Shown here one piece after another: positions 15,325-24,474 of a stretch of 64,000 nt of DNA. A model generated the notes under the pieces. That model did no database searches. It was given only the letters and a program-made list of their open reading frames with translations, and was not told the DNA's origin. The position numbers were made by a program, and so were the translations under genes. This DNA is from Thermacetogenium phaeum DSM 12270. Lineage in GTDB: Bacteria > Bacillota > DSM-12270 > Thermacetogeniales > Thermacetogeniaceae. Positions within the stretch are counted from its first letter, which is position 1. Every line of letters starts with the position of its first letter. The DNA is taken from positions 947,942 through 1,011,941 of the forward strand of contig NC_018870.1 of assembly GCF_000305935.1 (NCBI RefSeq), given 5' to 3'.

Positions 15325-16311
15325 TTGCCCTCAGATAGAGGTCTGCTGTTATCAGAGCTGGAAGAGCTGAACAGGCATTTGCGGAGGCGCTACCGGGCAG
15401 GAGGTACCATCCTGGAGAGGAGGGGGCGTGCCCGGGAACGGGGGGTTTTTGCCAGTCTGCGCCGCCTTTCCGGAAAGGAGATCCGGGATTTTTTTCAGGA
15501 GAGGACGCTCGGCGGTGTGGATGGATCCCTCGTTACCACCGGAGCCAGCTATCCCTATGTGGTGACCCTTTTCCGGGCACTGGCGCGGACAACCGGTAAC
15601 GGCGGAGGGCGCCGGATCTGGGCTGAGGAACTCTTCTCTCCCCTTCTTCCCAGGTTTCAGGAAAGCCTCCAGGCAAAACTGGAGCAGGGATTGGGCGCCG
15701 AAGAGGCTATGGCCCACCTGCGCTGGGGGATCCTGGCGCAGCTCGAGGCAAGGGTCTGTGCAGAAGCATTGGCCAAAGAACGCCCGCGCCTTATGCTCCT
15801 GGACGGCGGTTTTGCCCGCCTGGAGAAGCATGCTCCGCAGATGTGGGGGAGCTTGAAGGCAGCCGCCCTCGACCGGGATGTGGTGATTTTGGGGGTCACC
15901 GAGGAGATCGCCTCTCGTTCCCTGGCCAAGGCTCTGTGGGGGGACGGCCTCTTGGCGGAAGCCGCCGCCGACAGGGAGGTGCTCTTCGGCCTGCTGCAGC
16001 CGGGGGAGACCTACCTGCTTGAGGAGGAAGGTACGGGGGAGAAGGGGAGGATTTACGTGCGTTTTGCCGGGCATCCCCAGGTTGTTGCTGTGGACTACCT
16101 GACAGCTCAAGAGAAAGAACTAGCACAGGCCTTGAACTTTTTGTATACAATTACACCCGCTCACGGAAGGGGGTTTCCCCTCTGGCTGGATGTGGTGGAC
16201 AACGAGGTGCGTCTGACAGGGGAATACGTGGAGGCGCTGCTTGCGGCTTCACTAGAACCGGCCATGGCCGAGGTGTTCCTGCGCCCTCTGCGGGCAAACA
16301 GAGAGCTGTAG
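15325..16311 (+). CDS. nurA: NurA-domain nuclease
   Basis: A 328-residue protein with the NurA active-site start L-G-G-V-D-G-S-L near 61-68 (Asp is a metal ligand) and the distal L-M-L-L-D-G-G-F and A-V-D-Y-L elements. NurA is a 5'-to-3' exo/endonuclease that works with the HerA translocase and Mre11-Rad50 to make 3' overhangs at double-strand breaks, best known in archaea. TTG 15325 is used, about 10 bases after a GGGGG tract; no closer ATG exists. It is the first recognisable gene of a nurA-herA-mre11-rad50 cluster on one strand. Confidence 0.85.
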   Translation: MPSDRGLLLSELEELNRHLRRRYRAGGTILERRGRARERGVFASLRRLSGKEIRDFFQERTLGGVDGSLVTTGASYPYVVTLFRALARTTGNGGGRRIWAEELFSPLLPRFQESLQAKLEQGLGAEEAMAHLRWGILAQLEARVCAEALAKERPRLMLLDGGFARLEKHAPQMWGSLKAAALDRDVVILGVTEEIASRSLAKALWGDGLLAEAAADREVLFGLLQPGETYLLEEEGTGEKGRIYVRFAGHPQVVAVDYLTAQEKELAQALNFLYTITPAHGRGFPLWLDVVDNEVRLTGEYVEALLAASLEPAMAEVFLRPLRANREL

Positions 16312-16465
16312 GCATCGGGCACGGAAAGAATATCCAGACGGGGAGACGGTCTCCGGAGAATGAGCATAATCTGTGCAAGCGCCTGGCAGGAGTTGGGAAC
16401 GTCCCAAACGAGGAGAAGCTGGCGACAGCCGGGATAAACAGGAGACGGTAGGGGGTAATAAGTGC

Positions 16466-18316
16466 ATGCAAGTGGTTGGGGTAACCACACAGCAGTATGT
16501 CTATGTTGCCTCCCGGGAGCGGAGGTTCCGGATTGGGGAGATCCTGATCATCGATGACCCGGAACTCCGCCCGCGGGGTGAGGTGGTGGAGACAAAATCT
16601 TTTAATAGATTTCTGCCTCTCACCATGGAGCGCAGCCCCCTCATCGATCCCGATGTCTGGGAGGGGTTGGAGCAGGTGGGATTTCGCCTGGGTGAGGAGA
16701 CCATTCACCTGGCGAAAGTGCGCATTTTGAGCGACATTCCTTACCCTGTGGCGGTAGGAGCCGGGGCGCGCCTTCCCTCATTTTCAGAGGTTTCCGATCT
16801 GCTGCTCTCCTGTGAGCCGGACGCCGGGCTGGTGCTCGGTGTCATCCTGGGAACCGAGGAGTTGCAGGACGGTCTGCCGGAGGAGCTCCGGGAACGGGCA
16901 CCCCTTTTCGTCAAGGGTGAGGGGGTTCTGCCGCAGCGCGGGGTGCCCTTTGTTTTCGATCACCGGGCGATGCAGGAATACCCCCATATCGGGATTTTTG
17001 GGGGTTCGGGGTCCGGAAAGTCCTTCGGGATGCGGGTGATTCTGGAGGAGCTGCTGGAAAAGAGGATTCCTGCTTTGGTTTTTGATCCCCACTATGAAAT
17101 GAGCTTTACCACTCCCTTTGAAGGGATGAGCAAGGATGCCGCCGACAGGTACATCCTCCGGACGGAGGTGCTCACCGTCGGCAGGGATACGGGGGTGAAC
17201 TTCGAGGACCTGACCGGCAATGAGCTTGCTTCCCTCCTGGCGGCGGCAGGGGGGAACTTTACGGAAGGGATGGATAACGCCTTAAAGACCATTCACCAGG
17301 AGAAGGACTCCCTGCTGAGTTTTACCCAGAAGCTGGATGACTGTATCGGGCTGGTTGAAAAGGAGGAGGAGACCAGGGAGAGGATCCGCAAGAGGTATGG
17401 GGAGGGCTCTGCTTACGAGAGGAAGATCGAGAATATGGCCCGCCAGGCGGGACACCCCAGCAGTCTGAGGGGGATCCGCTGGCGGCTCTACCGCCTGGAG
17501 AGGGAAGGGATTTTCCGGCAGGATATTTCACCCATTACCGATGCACTGCAGCGCAGGTGCCTCACGGTCATCAGGGGCCCCATCTGGCTTCTGACCGTTT
17601 TCAGCGCTTATCTCGTCCGCAAACTATACCGGATGCGCCGCAATTACATCGATGCCCTTCAGCGCTGTGAACCCCTGGGTGACAAGTTCCCGCCCTTTTT
17701 CATAGTGACCGATGAGGCCCATAACTTTGCCCCCCGGGGGATCGAGTTCGCAGCACCGGCGCGGGGGGTCTTCCGGGAAGTAGCCCAGGAAGGCAGAAAA
17801 TATGGGGTTTTCCTGATCCTTGCCACCCAGCGCCCTGCCCTGCTCGATGAAACCATTACCGCCCAGCTCAACACCAAGATCATCTTTCGCACAGTCAGGG
17901 CGCACGACATCCGGGTGATCCAGGAGGAAACCGATATCTCCGGGGAGGAAGCGGGGAGGCTTCCCTATCTCCCTTCCGGTACCGCCTTTATTTCTTCGGC
18001 CATCGTTGGGAGGACGGTTGCGGTCAGAATCCGCTGCGCCCGGACCCAGGCTCCGCGATCCGTCAACCCCTTTACCGAACTGGAAAATGATTTTGGAGGG
18101 GTTGATGAGAGGCTCTGGAGCGCTCTCCGCAGGCTCCTTCCCTTAGACGCCGGGCAGGTGAACCTTTACCTCCCCGACCTCGAGGAGGCGCTGGGCAGGC
18201 CGGTTACCTTCGATGAAGTCTTGCGGTGGCTTGAGGATCTGGCGGCTGCCGGGATGCTGGAAAGGGTGGAGGGCCCCTTTGGGCCCACCTTCAGAGAGCC
18301 ATCTGAGGAGGGGTGA
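16466..18316 (+). CDS. herA: HerA-type bipolar DNA translocase/helicase ATPase
   Basis: ATG 16466 (M-Q-V-V-G-V-T-T) follows GGGGG with a good spacer; upstream codons in the frame do not look like protein. The 616-residue product has an N-terminal HAS-barrel-like beta domain (about 1-160), Walker A F-G-G-S-G-S-G-K-S near 176-184, Walker B I-V-T-D-E-A-H-N near 413, and an A-T-Q-R-P motif, the pattern of HerA/FtsK-like DUF87 ATPases. HerA forms hexameric rings that drive NurA in DNA end resection. The direct nurA neighbour upstream and mre11 downstream support this role. Confidence 0.9.
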   Translation: MQVVGVTTQQYVYVASRERRFRIGEILIIDDPELRPRGEVVETKSFNRFLPLTMERSPLIDPDVWEGLEQVGFRLGEETIHLAKVRILSDIPYPVAVGAGARLPSFSEVSDLLLSCEPDAGLVLGVILGTEELQDGLPEELRERAPLFVKGEGVLPQRGVPFVFDHRAMQEYPHIGIFGGSGSGKSFGMRVILEELLEKRIPALVFDPHYEMSFTTPFEGMSKDAADRYILRTEVLTVGRDTGVNFEDLTGNELASLLAAAGGNFTEGMDNALKTIHQEKDSLLSFTQKLDDCIGLVEKEEETRERIRKRYGEGSAYERKIENMARQAGHPSSLRGIRWRLYRLEREGIFRQDISPITDALQRRCLTVIRGPIWLLTVFSAYLVRKLYRMRRNYIDALQRCEPLGDKFPPFFIVTDEAHNFAPRGIEFAAPARGVFREVAQEGRKYGVFLILATQRPALLDETITAQLNTKIIFRTVRAHDIRVIQEETDISGEEAGRLPYLPSGTAFISSAIVGRTVAVRIRCARTQAPRSVNPFTELENDFGGVDERLWSALRRLLPLDAGQVNLYLPDLEEALGRPVTFDEVLRWLEDLAAAGMLERVEGPFGPTFREPSEEG

Positions 18317-18411: not shown

Positions 18412-19398
18412 ATGCGTTTTCTTTTTTTTACGGATGATCACAAGCGCGGTACCACTCCTGAAAACAGGAAGGACAACTTTCCTGCTGCCCTTGAGCGAAA
18501 GCTCAGAGAGGTGGTGCAGATCGCCCGTGAGCGGGATGTGGACTATGTGCTGCACGGGGGTGATTTTTTCGATGTGCCTGCCCCCGCTCTCAGTGTTTGC
18601 GCCGATTTCCTGGAGATCTTCCAGCAGTTTCCCGTACCTGTTTTCACGATTCCGGGCAACCACGACCTCTTTGGACACAACAGTGAAACCCTGCCCCGGA
18701 CCATGCTGGGGTTTGCCGCCCGGCTGGGTATCGTGCGTTTGTTAGAGAGAGACCCGGTTTATCTGGAGAAAAACGGCCTCAGGGTGCAGTTGACCGGACA
18801 GGGCTATCATGTTGATATGGACCGGCGCGATCCCCGCCTGGATTACACCGTTAAAAAGAAGGACTGCGACTATGCCATTCATGTGGTACACGGGATGCTC
18901 CTGGAGAGGGCGATTTTCCCCGGGGCGTTCTATACCCTGATCGAGCAGGTCTGGGATACGGAGGCCGATTTCACCCTTGTCGGCCACAACCACCTGGGGT
19001 TCAAGGCCACCGAAAGGGATGGGAAGTACTTCTTAAATCCCGGAGCGCTGGCGCGCCTCTCTAACCACCCGGCGGAGATGAAGAGGCCGGTACAGGTGGT
19101 TATCATTGACCTCGGCGGCAGCCGCCCGGCCTATGAAACCGTTCGGCTCAAGAGCGCCGCTCCCGGGGAAGATGTTCTCGACCGGACGCGCCTGGAAGAG
19201 AGCGCCTTCAGGGAGCAGAGGCTGGCGGGCTACCTGGCCGAGGTTAAGGCGGCGGGGTCGTACCGACGCACCGATGTCCGTGCCCTGCTGGAGGAGATCG
19301 CCCGTTCGGAAAAACTGCCTCCGAAGGTGATCCAGGAGGCTCTGAAGCGGATTGCCCAGGCCGAGGAGGCGCTGATGCAGGGGGAGGACGGGGTATGA
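18412..19398 (+). CDS. sbcD: Mre11/SbcD-type DNA repair exonuclease
   Basis: ATG 18412 follows AGGGGAGAAGAAGG. The 328-residue protein contains the calcineurin-like phosphoesterase motifs of Mre11/SbcD: T-D-D-H near 7-10, G-G-D-F-F-D near 50-55, G-N-H-D near 81-84, V-V-H-G-M near 162, and G-H-N-H near 190-193. The first motif is D-D-H rather than the commoner D-x-H-L-G context. With Rad50/SbcC it processes blocked or hairpin DNA ends. Its stop overlaps the next gene (ATGA), so it is translationally coupled to the Rad50-like N-terminal half. Confidence 0.93.
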   Translation: MRFLFFTDDHKRGTTPENRKDNFPAALERKLREVVQIARERDVDYVLHGGDFFDVPAPALSVCADFLEIFQQFPVPVFTIPGNHDLFGHNSETLPRTMLGFAARLGIVRLLERDPVYLEKNGLRVQLTGQGYHVDMDRRDPRLDYTVKKKDCDYAIHVVHGMLLERAIFPGAFYTLIEQVWDTEADFTLVGHNHLGFKATERDGKYFLNPGALARLSNHPAEMKRPVQVVIIDLGGSRPAYETVRLKSAAPGEDVLDRTRLEESAFREQRLAGYLAEVKAAGSYRRTDVRALLEEIARSEKLPPKVIQEALKRIAQAEEALMQGEDGV

Positions 19399-20699
19399 GT
19401 TACATCAAGAAGCTGGTGGTGGATAATTTCCAGTCTCACGAGCATACGGAAGTCGAGTTCGGCCCCGGTTTAAATGTCATCGTGGGGCCCTCCGACCACG
19501 GCAAGAGCGCCCTTGTCAGGGCCTTGCGCTGGCTTTTTTATAATGAACCGCGGGGGACCGGCTTCATCAGGGTGGGAGCCCAGCTATGCCGGGTACGGGT
19601 GGTGATGGATGACGGTACTGTGGTGACCCGGCTGCGGACCACCTCCGGCAAGAATCAGTACCTGCTGCAGAAGCCGGGAGAAGAGGAGGTGGTTTTTGAA
19701 GGGTTCGGAAGCGAGGTCCCGGCCGAGGTCATCAAGACGACGGGCGTCCGGAAGATCCTGGTGGATGAGCACAGCAAAGCGGAGCTGAACCTGGGCGGAC
19801 AGCTTGACGGCCCCTTTCTCCTGGCAGAGAACGGGGCGGTCAGGGCCAAGGTGATCGGGCAATTGGGCGGTGTACACCTGCTGGACTGGGCGCAGCGTTC
19901 GGTGAACACGGAACTGCGGCGCCTGCGCGATGAGGAAAACCGTATCGGAGAAAGGCTGGAAAATCTGGTGGAAGCCCTTCGCGCTTATGAGCACCTACCC
20001 GTACTGCAAGACAGAATTGAACGGTGCGCAGATCTTTTGCGGCAGGCTGAGGAAAAAGAGCGCGCGATCGGCGAACTGCTTGCCCTCCGGAGGGAATGGG
20101 AGGAGAACTCCGCTGCTCTGGCGGAGACGGAGCGCACCCTGTCGGAGCTGGCCGGTTGCGAAGAGGCGGAGGAGAGGGTGCGGTACCTGGAGGGGATCGG
20201 CCGTAAATACCGGGAAATGACGGCCCTTCTGCAGGAGATGAGACTGGTGGAGAACCGGCTTAAGCAGGCGGAGCAGGTGATCACCGGTTCCGGACGGGTT
20301 CCCGCCGCCGAGGACCTGCTCGTTAAGGCTGCCGACCTTTACAAAGAGTGGAGTGAGCTCAGCCAGACCTCCGGCGAGTTGGCGAGGGTGACGGCTCTGC
20401 TGAACAGGATTGCGCTGATCGCCGGCAGAACCGGGGAGCTGGGGGTGGGAGAGGCACGCCTGTCCGGTGCGGAAGAGGTGCTCCGCACGCTCACCTCCTG
20501 CAGGGAAGTGCTGCGGGAGTGGCGGGAACATGAAAAGGCCTACCGGGGAGTCTGCTTGGCTGCGGAGCGCTATCAGAAGGAGATAGAGCAGCAACTGAAG
20601 GCGTTCCGCGATCTCCTGATGGAGCTGGGGAGGTGCCCGGTGTGCCTGGGGGAATTGGATCGGGAAGCCATAAAGCGGGTGCTTGATGAGTATCGATAA
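19395..20699 (+). CDS. Rad50/SbcC-like ATPase, N-terminal half ending at the zinc hook
   Basis: The 434-residue protein begins like Rad50 (I-K-K-L-V-V-D-N-F-Q-S-H-E-H-T), with Walker A G-P-S-D-H-G-K-S-A near 32-40, then a Glu/Arg/Leu-rich coiled coil from about 165 to 405. It stops just after L-G-R-C-P-V-C-L-G-E-L, a CPVC zinc hook that in ordinary Rad50 lies in the middle of the chain. The second coil, signature motif and Walker B are missing here but found in the next two genes. It overlaps sbcD by 4 bases. Inferred: one chain of a split Rad50. Confidence 0.9.
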   Translation: MSYIKKLVVDNFQSHEHTEVEFGPGLNVIVGPSDHGKSALVRALRWLFYNEPRGTGFIRVGAQLCRVRVVMDDGTVVTRLRTTSGKNQYLLQKPGEEEVVFEGFGSEVPAEVIKTTGVRKILVDEHSKAELNLGGQLDGPFLLAENGAVRAKVIGQLGGVHLLDWAQRSVNTELRRLRDEENRIGERLENLVEALRAYEHLPVLQDRIERCADLLRQAEEKERAIGELLALRREWEENSAALAETERTLSELAGCEEAEERVRYLEGIGRKYREMTALLQEMRLVENRLKQAEQVITGSGRVPAAEDLLVKAADLYKEWSELSQTSGELARVTALLNRIALIAGRTGELGVGEARLSGAEEVLRTLTSCREVLREWREHEKAYRGVCLAAERYQKEIEQQLKAFRDLLMELGRCPVCLGELDREAIKRVLDEYR

Positions 20700-20712
20700 G
20701 GGGGGAATGAGG

Positions 20713-20991
20713 TTGGCGGATCAGAACGAACAGATCCAGTACGAAAAGAGGATCAATCACTTAAAAGAGGCCCTGCGCCGCTCCCGGGATCTCAGGGAGC
20801 GTGCCCTCAGCCAGAAGGAGCTGCTGGAGCAGCAGCGGGAAAAGCTTTACCAGAAGGCAGCTGAGTACGGGGTGAAGCCGGAGGAGTTGGAGGGGAAGAT
20901 CGCCGCTCTCAAGGAAGAAATGGATAGGTTGCTGGAGGAGGCGGGAAAGATGATTCCCTGGGACCTTTTAGAAAAGGAGCGCTCCCGGTGA
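20713..20991 (+). CDS. small coiled-coil protein, probable middle piece of split Rad50
   Basis: About 92 residues almost wholly of heptad-like Glu/Lys/Leu/Arg composition (I-N-H-L-K-E-A-L-R-R-S, then Q-K-E-L-L-E-Q-Q-R-E-K-L). It lies between the zinc-hook half and the Walker B half of the Rad50-like protein, where the descending coil would be. TTG 20713 has the best spacing (7) from the AAGGGGGG run at 20698-20705; ATG 20707 or 20683 are alternatives. Its stop overlaps the next start (GTGA at 20988-20991). No catalytic motif is present. It could complete the coil or be an accessory subunit. Confidence 0.65.
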   Translation: MADQNEQIQYEKRINHLKEALRRSRDLRERALSQKELLEQQREKLYQKAAEYGVKPEELEGKIAALKEEMDRLLEEAGKMIPWDLLEKERSR

Positions 20992-21641
20992 AGCAGGATC
21001 TTAATGCCCTAAAAAAGGCCCTTGAAGAGCTGAAGGCCGTTTATCACAGACAGAGGGGGGAACAGGCGAAGATCCTTGAAGAGGAAAAGGTTCAGCGGGA
21101 ACGCCTGGCTCAGGTTAAGGATGAGGGGGAATGCTTAGAACAGGTGCGCCTCCTGCTGCTGGAGGCGGCCCGGCACGCCCGGGAGCAGGGGCGCCGCCAG
21201 GTGGAGTACCTGGTCTCCCAGGCGCTTCAATTCGTCTTCGGTGGGGATGTGGAATTTAAGGTTGAGGTGGAAGAGAAACGGGATCGTCCGGAGGCAGAGT
21301 TCTATGTTTGCTCTACCTACGGCGGTAACTACCGGGTGGAAACTCCCCCCCAGGACGCCAGAGGAGGCGGTGTCGTCGATGTAATCTCTTTGGCCCTGCG
21401 CCTTGCCCTCTTGCATGCCTTCCGGCCTCCGGTGGGAGGACCCGCCGTTTTAGATGAGCCGGGGAAACATGTGTCTGAGGAGTATGCTCCCCAGCTCGCC
21501 CGCTTCTTGAAGAGCTTCAGTCAGAGTCTGGGGCGTCAGGTGATCATGGTATCCCACAACCAGCATCTGGCGGATACGGCGGATATTGCCTACCTGGTGG
21601 AGATGCAGCATGGCGCCAGCAGAGTCAGGCGCATTCGCTAA
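20988..21641 (+). CDS. Rad50/SbcC-like ATPase, C-terminal half
   Basis: A 217-residue protein starting with a coiled coil (about 1-80) and then the C-terminal ATPase lobe of Rad50: an ABC-signature region A-R-G-G-G-V-V-D-V-I-S-L-A-L-R-L, Walker B with catalytic Glu G-P-A-V-L-D-E-P, and H-loop M-V-S-H-N-Q-H. The signature reads R-G-G-G where Rad50 normally has S-G-G-E, so the ATP-sandwich contact may be altered. It has no CxxC hook. GTG 20988 overlaps the previous stop. It must pair with the Walker A half encoded by the gene at 19395 to make a complete ATPase. Confidence 0.85.
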   Translation: MKQDLNALKKALEELKAVYHRQRGEQAKILEEEKVQRERLAQVKDEGECLEQVRLLLLEAARHAREQGRRQVEYLVSQALQFVFGGDVEFKVEVEEKRDRPEAEFYVCSTYGGNYRVETPPQDARGGGVVDVISLALRLALLHAFRPPVGGPAVLDEPGKHVSEEYAPQLARFLKSFSQSLGRQVIMVSHNQHLADTADIAYLVEMQHGASRVRRIR

Positions 21642-22791: not shown

Positions 22792-24474
22792 AAGAGACCT
22801 CGGCACCCAAAATCTATCACCCCAAAAAGGAGTGTGAGGTCTCATGTTGGATATTCGCCACATAGTGGGGGCAGTCCTTCTTTTTGTCAAAGGTTTAGTC
22901 AAATTAATTGGAGAGTGCGAAGACTTTTCTGAGCTTGAGAAAGGAGTTCACGAACTCTGCCAGGACGTGTGTAACCAGATTTTCACCTGGGCATTAGAAA
23001 AGATCGATACCCGTCTGATGAATGAACGAGACCGAAGCATCTGGGAGGTGGTCGGTTTTCGGACAAAAACAGCCATCAGCACCTTTGGGGAATTTTCCTT
23101 AAAAAGGCGGCTGTACAGGAACAAAGAAACCGGGGAAACCAAATTCTTTTTAGACGAACTGCTGGGCTGGCCGGAGCGGGCCAGGGTTACTCCTTACCTA
23201 AAAGAGTTGGCAATCAAACTAAGCACCGAACTTTCCTTTGGCCGGGCAGCGGAGATATTGAGTTATCTTGTACCTAAATTAAGCACCATGACCATCTGGC
23301 ATATCACCCAAGAAGCAGGCGAAATACTGCAGCAAGAAGGGGAAGAGAAGAGAGCGGCGGTATTTGAAGACGGAGAAGCACCAAGTGGGAAAGAAGTGGT
23401 TCGGGAGTTGCATATTGAAGGTGACGGAGTGATAGTCAATCTGCAACGGGAAAAAGAGAAGCGAGGAGAAATCAAACACATAGTAACCTACGAAGGGAAG
23501 AAACAAGTTAGCCGGAACCGCTTTGCCCTGCAAAACAAGCTTGTTGTAAGCACCCTAAGTGAAGGACAAGTGGCCTGGGAAGAGAGCTATGCTCGGGCTG
23601 GGGGGAAATGGGATTTAGAACAGATCAAAGAGATCTACATAGGTGGCGATGGAGCAAAATGGATCAAAGAGGGGCTGGAATACTTCCCTGGTGCCGTATA
23701 CTGCTTAGACCCATACCATCTAAACAGGCATTTAACCGAAGCCCTTTGGTATGACGAAGAAACCTTTCAGAAAGTAGGCGCAGCCATCTCTCATAGCAAC
23801 TGGCAGGAAACCCAAGCAATACTCACAGAAGCAATCAAAAAAACCAGAGGCAACCGGAAAAAGAGGCTCATCAAGCTATTGCATTATCTTGAAGAGAACT
23901 GGACGGGGATTATTAACTCGGCAGGAGCAAAACGTTTAGGAACCATCGAAGGGCAGATTCAGCACAACGTAGCACGGCGGATGAAACGCCTGGGGGCCAA
24001 GTGGACCACAACCGGAGGAGACCGGATGGCCCGGCTTCTGGCTGCCAAAGCAAACGGAGAGCTTAGCAATTATGCTTCGCGCTGGCCAGTGGAACATGGA
24101 AAGCTGAAGGAGATAGCGCAGATAAAACCGGTAGAAAAGTCGGTAGAAAAACAAAAAGCCGGAGAAATAGGGGAATGGCTGCAGGCGACAATACCGGCAT
24201 TAAAAGGGCCTTTTGCGGATCGTCCCTGGATAAAACATGTTTTACGGGAACTGACCCGGCCGGAATTTGCTGCTCTTATTTGCTAACCGGTTTCCCGAGT
24301 AGCACTGATAGCTTGGCCTCTACATGTGTTAAATGTTTTGCGACGGGGTGACGTGTTATTGTTGTCTGTTCCTCCTAGCTACCTGGTTGTCAAGTTTATC
24401 TCAACAATCTTCAGTTAAATTCAAGGTCAAAGCCATTGCTTTGAAGCTTAAGGTTTTGAACGTCGAGGTCTCTT
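22792..24474 (+). mobile_element. ISLre2-family insertion sequence
   Basis: One transposase gene is framed by inverted ends: AAGAGACCTCG at 22792-22802 and its complement CGAGGTCTCTT at 24464-24474, with further scattered matches inward (C, AAAA, CT). The span is about 1.68 kb, normal for the family. A clear target duplication is not visible, so the exact outer bases may be off by a few. The composition is more A-rich than the flanks, suggesting acquisition. Confidence 0.8.
22844..24286 (+). CDS. ISLre2 (UPF0236) family transposase
   Basis: A 480-residue protein, full length for this family and without visible frameshift. It carries the family pattern: an N-terminal helical region, H-I-E-G-D-G-V near 187, Y-I-G-G-D-G-A-K-W near 265, L-D-P-Y-H-L-N-R-H near 288 and T-T-G-G-D-R-M-A-R near 387. 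The acidic residues in these blocks are the likely DDE-type catalytic set. ATG 22844 follows AAAAAGGAG. The bases just before the ATG (GAGGTCTC, 22836-22843) are complementary to the left IS end (22794-22801), so an external transcript could fold over the start and limit transposase translation. The element looks potentially active. Confidence 0.93.
   Translation: MLDIRHIVGAVLLFVKGLVKLIGECEDFSELEKGVHELCQDVCNQIFTWALEKIDTRLMNERDRSIWEVVGFRTKTAISTFGEFSLKRRLYRNKETGETKFFLDELLGWPERARVTPYLKELAIKLSTELSFGRAAEILSYLVPKLSTMTIWHITQEAGEILQQEGEEKRAAVFEDGEAPSGKEVVRELHIEGDGVIVNLQREKEKRGEIKHIVTYEGKKQVSRNRFALQNKLVVSTLSEGQVAWEESYARAGGKWDLEQIKEIYIGGDGAKWIKEGLEYFPGAVYCLDPYHLNRHLTEALWYDEETFQKVGAAISHSNWQETQAILTEAIKKTRGNRKKRLIKLLHYLEENWTGIINSAGAKRLGTIEGQIQHNVARRMKRLGAKWTTTGGDRMARLLAAKANGELSNYASRWPVEHGKLKEIAQIKPVEKSVEKQKAGEIGEWLQATIPALKGPFADRPWIKHVLRELTRPEFAALIC

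Follow-up and report, generated by a model that had tools for sequence, protein, structure and literature searches.

A Rad50 encoded by three separate genes, the first of which ends just beyond the zinc hook, was identified in Thermacetogenium phaeum DSM 12270. The best explanation of the locus as a whole, which we regard as probable in the absence of biochemical evidence, is a Mre11-Rad50 end-processing complex in which the three-gene Rad50 represents an ancient, stable state, its genes often being translationally coupled. To our knowledge, Rad50 is one long chain in nearly all known life. The window, i.e. the whole stretch of 64,000 nucleotides that was analysed, carries the following genes in the order NurA-HerA-Mre11-N-M-C:

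15325-16311 (+): NurA nuclease (Pfam NurA, E 2.2e-16), a conserved neighbour of HerA in relatives
16466-18316 (+): HerA translocase (Pfam DUF87/HerA, E 3.3e-16)
18412-19398 (+): Mre11/SbcD-like nuclease, 328 aa (Metallophos, E 4.3e-11; matches PDB Mre11 chains, best 3qg5)
19395-20699 (+): Rad50-N, 434 aa, ATG start, comprising Walker A and the head, an arm made up of 47-residue repeats, the zinc hook and a tail
20713-20991 (+): Rad50-M, 92 aa, TTG start, helical, interrupted by a conserved GVxPEEL break
20988-21641 (+): Rad50-C, 217 aa, GTG start, with an 84-residue helix, modified signature and Walker B

The start of N overlaps the stop of Mre11 as ATGA. Walker A of N is encoded at nt 19485-19508 and its CPVC at nt 20634-20645, and the chain stops 17 residues past CPVC with the closing residues CPVCLGELDREAIKRVLDEYR. 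The TTG of M sits seven bases past GGGGGG, a Shine-Dalgarno-like run, and its length of 92 aa is that found in most same-family relatives. The start of C overlaps the stop of M by 4 bases (GTGA), with AAGGAG 8 bases upstream, and C contains the RGGG signature (nt 21360-21371), Walker B (LDEP), a D-loop (HVS) and the H-switch His190. An earlier note on this DNA had described three consecutive ORFs with a GTGA overlap at the second junction, a first gene ending shortly after CPVC, a third gene holding signature and Walker B, and a separate start signal for each; all of this is borne out in the window, where a Shine-Dalgarno-like run precedes every start and the signature is a modified one. The HerA ORF as listed opens at GTG 16373 and probably extends too far at the 5' end (window 16373-16466), the likely start being ATG 16466 because the alignments of relatives begin at query residue 32.

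N and C are the two lobes of a Rad50 head. N matches the Pfam families AAA_23 and, below threshold, Rad50_zn_hook, C matches SMC_N, also below threshold, and in NCBIfam N is matched best by PRK03918 Rad50 (E 2.2e-21). The N and C profiles match the structures of the P. furiosus Rad50 N chain and C chain, a profile including N matches the zinc-hook structures 1l8d and 6zff, and the AlphaFold model of C (pLDDT 92.5) resembles the C-lobes of Rad50/SMC proteins. Among the features expected of a Rad50, the ABC ATPase head is present as an N-lobe with Walker A and a C-lobe with Walker B and the H-switch His. Also present is the CxxC zinc hook at the tip of the arm; in almost every locus CxxC lies close to where N ends. 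The LSGGE signature is absent, R-G-G-G-V being aligned to L-S-G-G-E, and the D-loop Asp is replaced by Ser in C. A Ser-to-Arg change in the signature was ruled out by the alignment, the substitutions being Leu-to-Arg and Ser-to-Gly. Walker A, Walker B and the H-switch His have been retained, but with the signature Ser and the D-loop Asp replaced it cannot be taken for granted that the head is an active ATPase.

The proteins could also be a defence SMC-like ATPase of the kind represented by Lamassu LmuB, MADS Mad3, Gabija or retron PtuA rather than a repair Rad50, since there are matches of N to LmuB (E 2e-17), of C to mad3 (E 2.8e-12) and also of HerA to mad8. We consider this improbable, as the NCBIfam repair Rad50 model outscores all defence models on N (75.6 vs 61.6 bits), the Mre11 and NurA-HerA partners are conserved in place across the family, and phage copies adjoin recombination genes. 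LmuB and Mad3 (PADLOC) are related SMC-like ATPases, mad3 being the best match of C there, but they differ in that they are single-chain models of 374-1007 positions and belong to defence systems.

A three-gene Rad50 is not peculiar to this strain. A stand-alone C was found in 19 of 20 same-family genomes, the window's included, and all three pieces are kept in every same-family genome with enough flank. The same layout occurs in distant Bacillota and in viruses, and a stand-alone C is present in 66 of the 398 genomes sampled from the phylum. The holders that could be named, Syntrophaceticus, Thermacetogenium, Carboxydocella, Ammonifex, Tumebacillus, Ammoniphilus, Halalkalibacterium, Salsuginibacillus and Peptoniphilus, are all Bacillota, and the one match outside these holders, in Aliikangiella, is weak and covers 40 residues. 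Our set of loci comprised 56 distinct bacterial and 34 viral ones. N is apart from C in 52 of the bacterial loci, the others being three armless fusions and one contig that is too short, and in 32 of the viral loci, two lacking N in the fetched stretch. An N-M-C single chain was found in none of the 52 assessable bacterial loci and the 32 viral loci with N, and an N-C fusion in none of the 34 viral loci. In two loci (L047 and L072) M and C appeared to be fused, but the frame is merely open upstream and there is no fusion. Bacterial N ends 6-29 residues past CxxC, most often 17, with one exception at 44; viral N ends 4-17 residues past it. A Mre11/SbcD partner lies near 53 of the 56 bacterial and 31 of the 34 viral loci.

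These comparisons decide on the first alternative, namely sequencing error, recent frameshifts or a decaying pseudogene in this strain only. The same genome does hold a truly decayed second copy, with Mre11 and C truncated (L059), but the three-way layout in all same-family genomes with flank, in many families and in viruses, the Shine-Dalgarno-like run at each start, and an identity of 70-84% between genera for M and the heads leave this explanation with next to no probability; error or recent frameshift is refuted by the relatives. An intact single gene in relatives, which the earlier note had named as the finding that would refute a split, was looked for and not found, the only single chains being derived Mre11-headN-headC fusions that have neither arms nor hook. 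This absence of relatives with one intact gene lends strong support to the view that the coils are separate polypeptides; a link between them through zinc or the middle protein is an inference. The split is more general than the earlier note had reported, extending to many other Bacillota and some of their viruses.

Programmed frameshifting or readthrough could in principle join the pieces, and the short M-C overlaps, often of 4 bases, seen in many loci are compatible with it. However, the relation of N to M is scattered over all three frames (18/18/16 in bacteria), the gaps run from overlap to kilobases (up to 3.5 kb between N and M in viruses), and unrelated genes or Mre11 often intervene between the pieces, as in L149-L156, where N and C flank the Mre11 gene. 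In the actinophage Magritte the pieces are dispersed, with an N-like gene at 93.8 kb, an M-like gene at 127.2 kb and C at 0.3 kb, with the caveats that the M-like assignment is weak (E 0.002) and the N-like gene is without CxxC. Scattered frames, intervening genes and the dispersed Magritte pieces indicate that three proteins are made separately and thereby exclude error and recent frameshift, as well as programmed frameshifting, to which we assign only a very small residual probability. Two of the intervening genes at the N-M junction, an AP2-domain gene in Bacillus phage vB_BboS-125 (L090:4984-5556) and an unidentified 169 aa gene in the same position (L096:6667-7176), are possibly homing-type insertions. 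In three large viral contigs Mre11 is fused to N, with M and C separate (L093:4639-6948, L094:5222-7345 and L128:5120-7438).

The arms of the split Rad50 differ from those of SbcC. Between head and hook, N spans about 233, 279 or 328 residues, with hardly any intermediate values (overall range 228-333), whereas the descending stretch, i.e. tail, M and C helix, mostly measures 138-190 residues. The two lengths do not rise together (correlations of -0.15 and -0.34), and in three SbcC controls the arms are matched, at 339-342 vs 341-366 residues. Self-comparison revealed a period of 47 residues, with a mean z of 6.0 for 49 bacterial arms and 5.8 for 27 viral arms; 47 is the best offset in 40 of the 49 bacterial and 23 of the 27 viral arms, with a second peak at 94, and no such period was found in SbcC by the same self-comparison. 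Close homologs of N are 434, 481 and 529 aa long, in steps of one and two 47-residue units. As the N arm varies in 47-residue steps and M plus C are constant, the arms are not length-matched as they are in SbcC. A single chain with equal antiparallel arms is thus not what is found here, where there are three chains and unequal arms, and unequal, uncorrelated arms together with the repeats imply that a simple equal-length coiled coil cannot be right for the clade. An AlphaFold model of N and M read through the stop (Syntrophaceticus schinkii, L061) had a mean pLDDT of 65.9, with the arm at low confidence, and was not used for arm topology.

The middle protein is the weakest part of the model. 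Between genera M is 72-84% identical, compared with 70-81% for the heads and 37-45% for the N arm, and model and alignment give it two helices separated by a GVxPExL-type break. The earlier description of the middle gene as only coiled coil therefore holds insofar as M is predicted to be helical, but M has no usable sequence homology to the descending coils of SbcC or Rad50. M may form the distal descending arm or act as a brace in its own right. Alternatively, Rad50 may consist of two pieces, N and C, with M as an accessory subunit, e.g. an adaptor to HerA-NurA or DNA. The lack of homology to Rad50 coils, a conservation far above that of the N arm, the conserved break, and the failure of N, M and C together to give matched arms all speak for an accessory M; its location between N and C at almost every locus, its helical model, its retention in phages without HerA/NurA nearby, and the failure to detect it beside the armless fusions, where the arms are missing, make this unlikely, though not to be dismissed. 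We tentatively propose, as a serious possibility short of a likelihood, a distinct architecture in which N alone provides the hook arm, built from 47-residue helical repeats as modules that are gained or lost whole, without residue-by-residue pairing to the descending arm. M would be a separate conserved latch, and arm and M could be discarded together to give the armless fusion. If true, the length of the arm and tethering by the hook could be tuned, and both could be uncoupled from the ATPase-nuclease core.

The relationships were analysed with a tree of concatenated N and C heads (86 rows, 339 columns), in which a very long branch parts the split clade from SbcC. The armless fusions, each a chain of about 690 aa that comprises Mre11 followed by the N and C heads of Rad50 but lacks both coil and CxxC, occur in three genomes of one family (f44):

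L158:5764-7818 (+): armless fusion
L159:6652-8754 (-): armless fusion
L160:6583-8670 (-): armless fusion

They are nested within the split clade, with support of 98/85 in a 12-row set and 99/94 in a 52-row set, and are therefore derived. Viral and bacterial rows interleave, the starred branches requiring at least 4 to 5 changes, which indicates exchange. The deepest rows are viral; since long branches make the root uncertain, that the split arose in viruses is no more than possible.

NurA and HerA are encoded together with Mre11 and Rad50 in the window, and HerA and NurA lie near at least 23 of the 56 bacterial loci, some of which are short of flank; HerA-NurA is absent near the viral loci. 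The archaeal HerA-Mre11-Rad50-NurA cluster, which encodes the same four functions together, is known for DNA end resection; the window differs from it in having three genes for Rad50, RGGGV in place of LSGGE, and its own gene order. In the window's genome, SbcC gave no TIGR00618 match at E<=1e-3, AddA gave none over the cut-off, and besides the Rad50 locus there are only weak SbcD-like matches. A bacterial NurA-HerA has been described in DNA end resection (PMC9960219). Judged from gene context, end resection with the adjacent NurA-HerA is the most likely role. In the complex that we infer, N would supply Walker A and the arm bearing the zinc hook, and C the signature, Walker B and the proximal helix. 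The two may assemble in trans into one ABC ATPase head, as the P. furiosus Rad50 fragments, expressed separately, do in crystals, with M providing a helical arm segment or bracing the arm and presumably holding the N arm and the C helix together non-covalently. Two N chains could be joined at the apex by Zn via CxxC. With HerA-NurA, such a complex would probably carry out the resection done elsewhere by SbcCD/AddAB, an activity that is likewise inferred.

Bacterial SbcCD is likewise a Mre11-type nuclease with an ABC ATPase bearing a CxxC hook at the arm tip, but SbcC (TIGR00618) is a single chain, about 1040-1070 aa in length, whose arms are matched and which lacks the 47-residue repeat. The P. 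furiosus Rad50 head in 1f2t/1ii8 also consists of separate N and C chains; those are a laboratory construct, whereas here the split is natural, lies at the hook and includes a third protein. PHROGs contains N, M and C as three unlinked phage families, phrog_16465, phrog_18563 and phrog_15167, labelled 'exonuclease', 'unknown function' and 'ATPase', with no stated link to a split Rad50. No description of a split or armless Rad50 was found in the literature searched, most subscription journals being outside reach; a jumbo-phage survey reports split polymerases and mentions no SbcC split (PMC7824862). Recognition of the three pieces accounts for genes annotated as 'hypothetical', 'ParA' or 'AAA family ATPase' beside metallophosphoesterases in phages and plasmids. 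How the hook communicates with the ATPase-nuclease head via the long arms is a standing question for Mre11-Rad50, and a natural arm that is not one chain, varies by repeats and is lost in one lineage offers a ready set of experiments on arm features.

The earlier note had said nothing of the neighbouring HerA and NurA genes, the 47-residue repeats, the unequal arm lengths or the viral relatives. Just downstream of the Rad50 cluster lie an uppP-like gene and, at 22844-24286 (+), an ORF of 480 aa that we take to be transposase-like, resembling the ISLre2/UPF0236 type. The second split Mre11-Rad50 copy in the window's genome is divergent (L059:8243-11143 (-); G000:C1, about 1478240-1481140), and an intact form of this copy is present in a relative (G014, L051).
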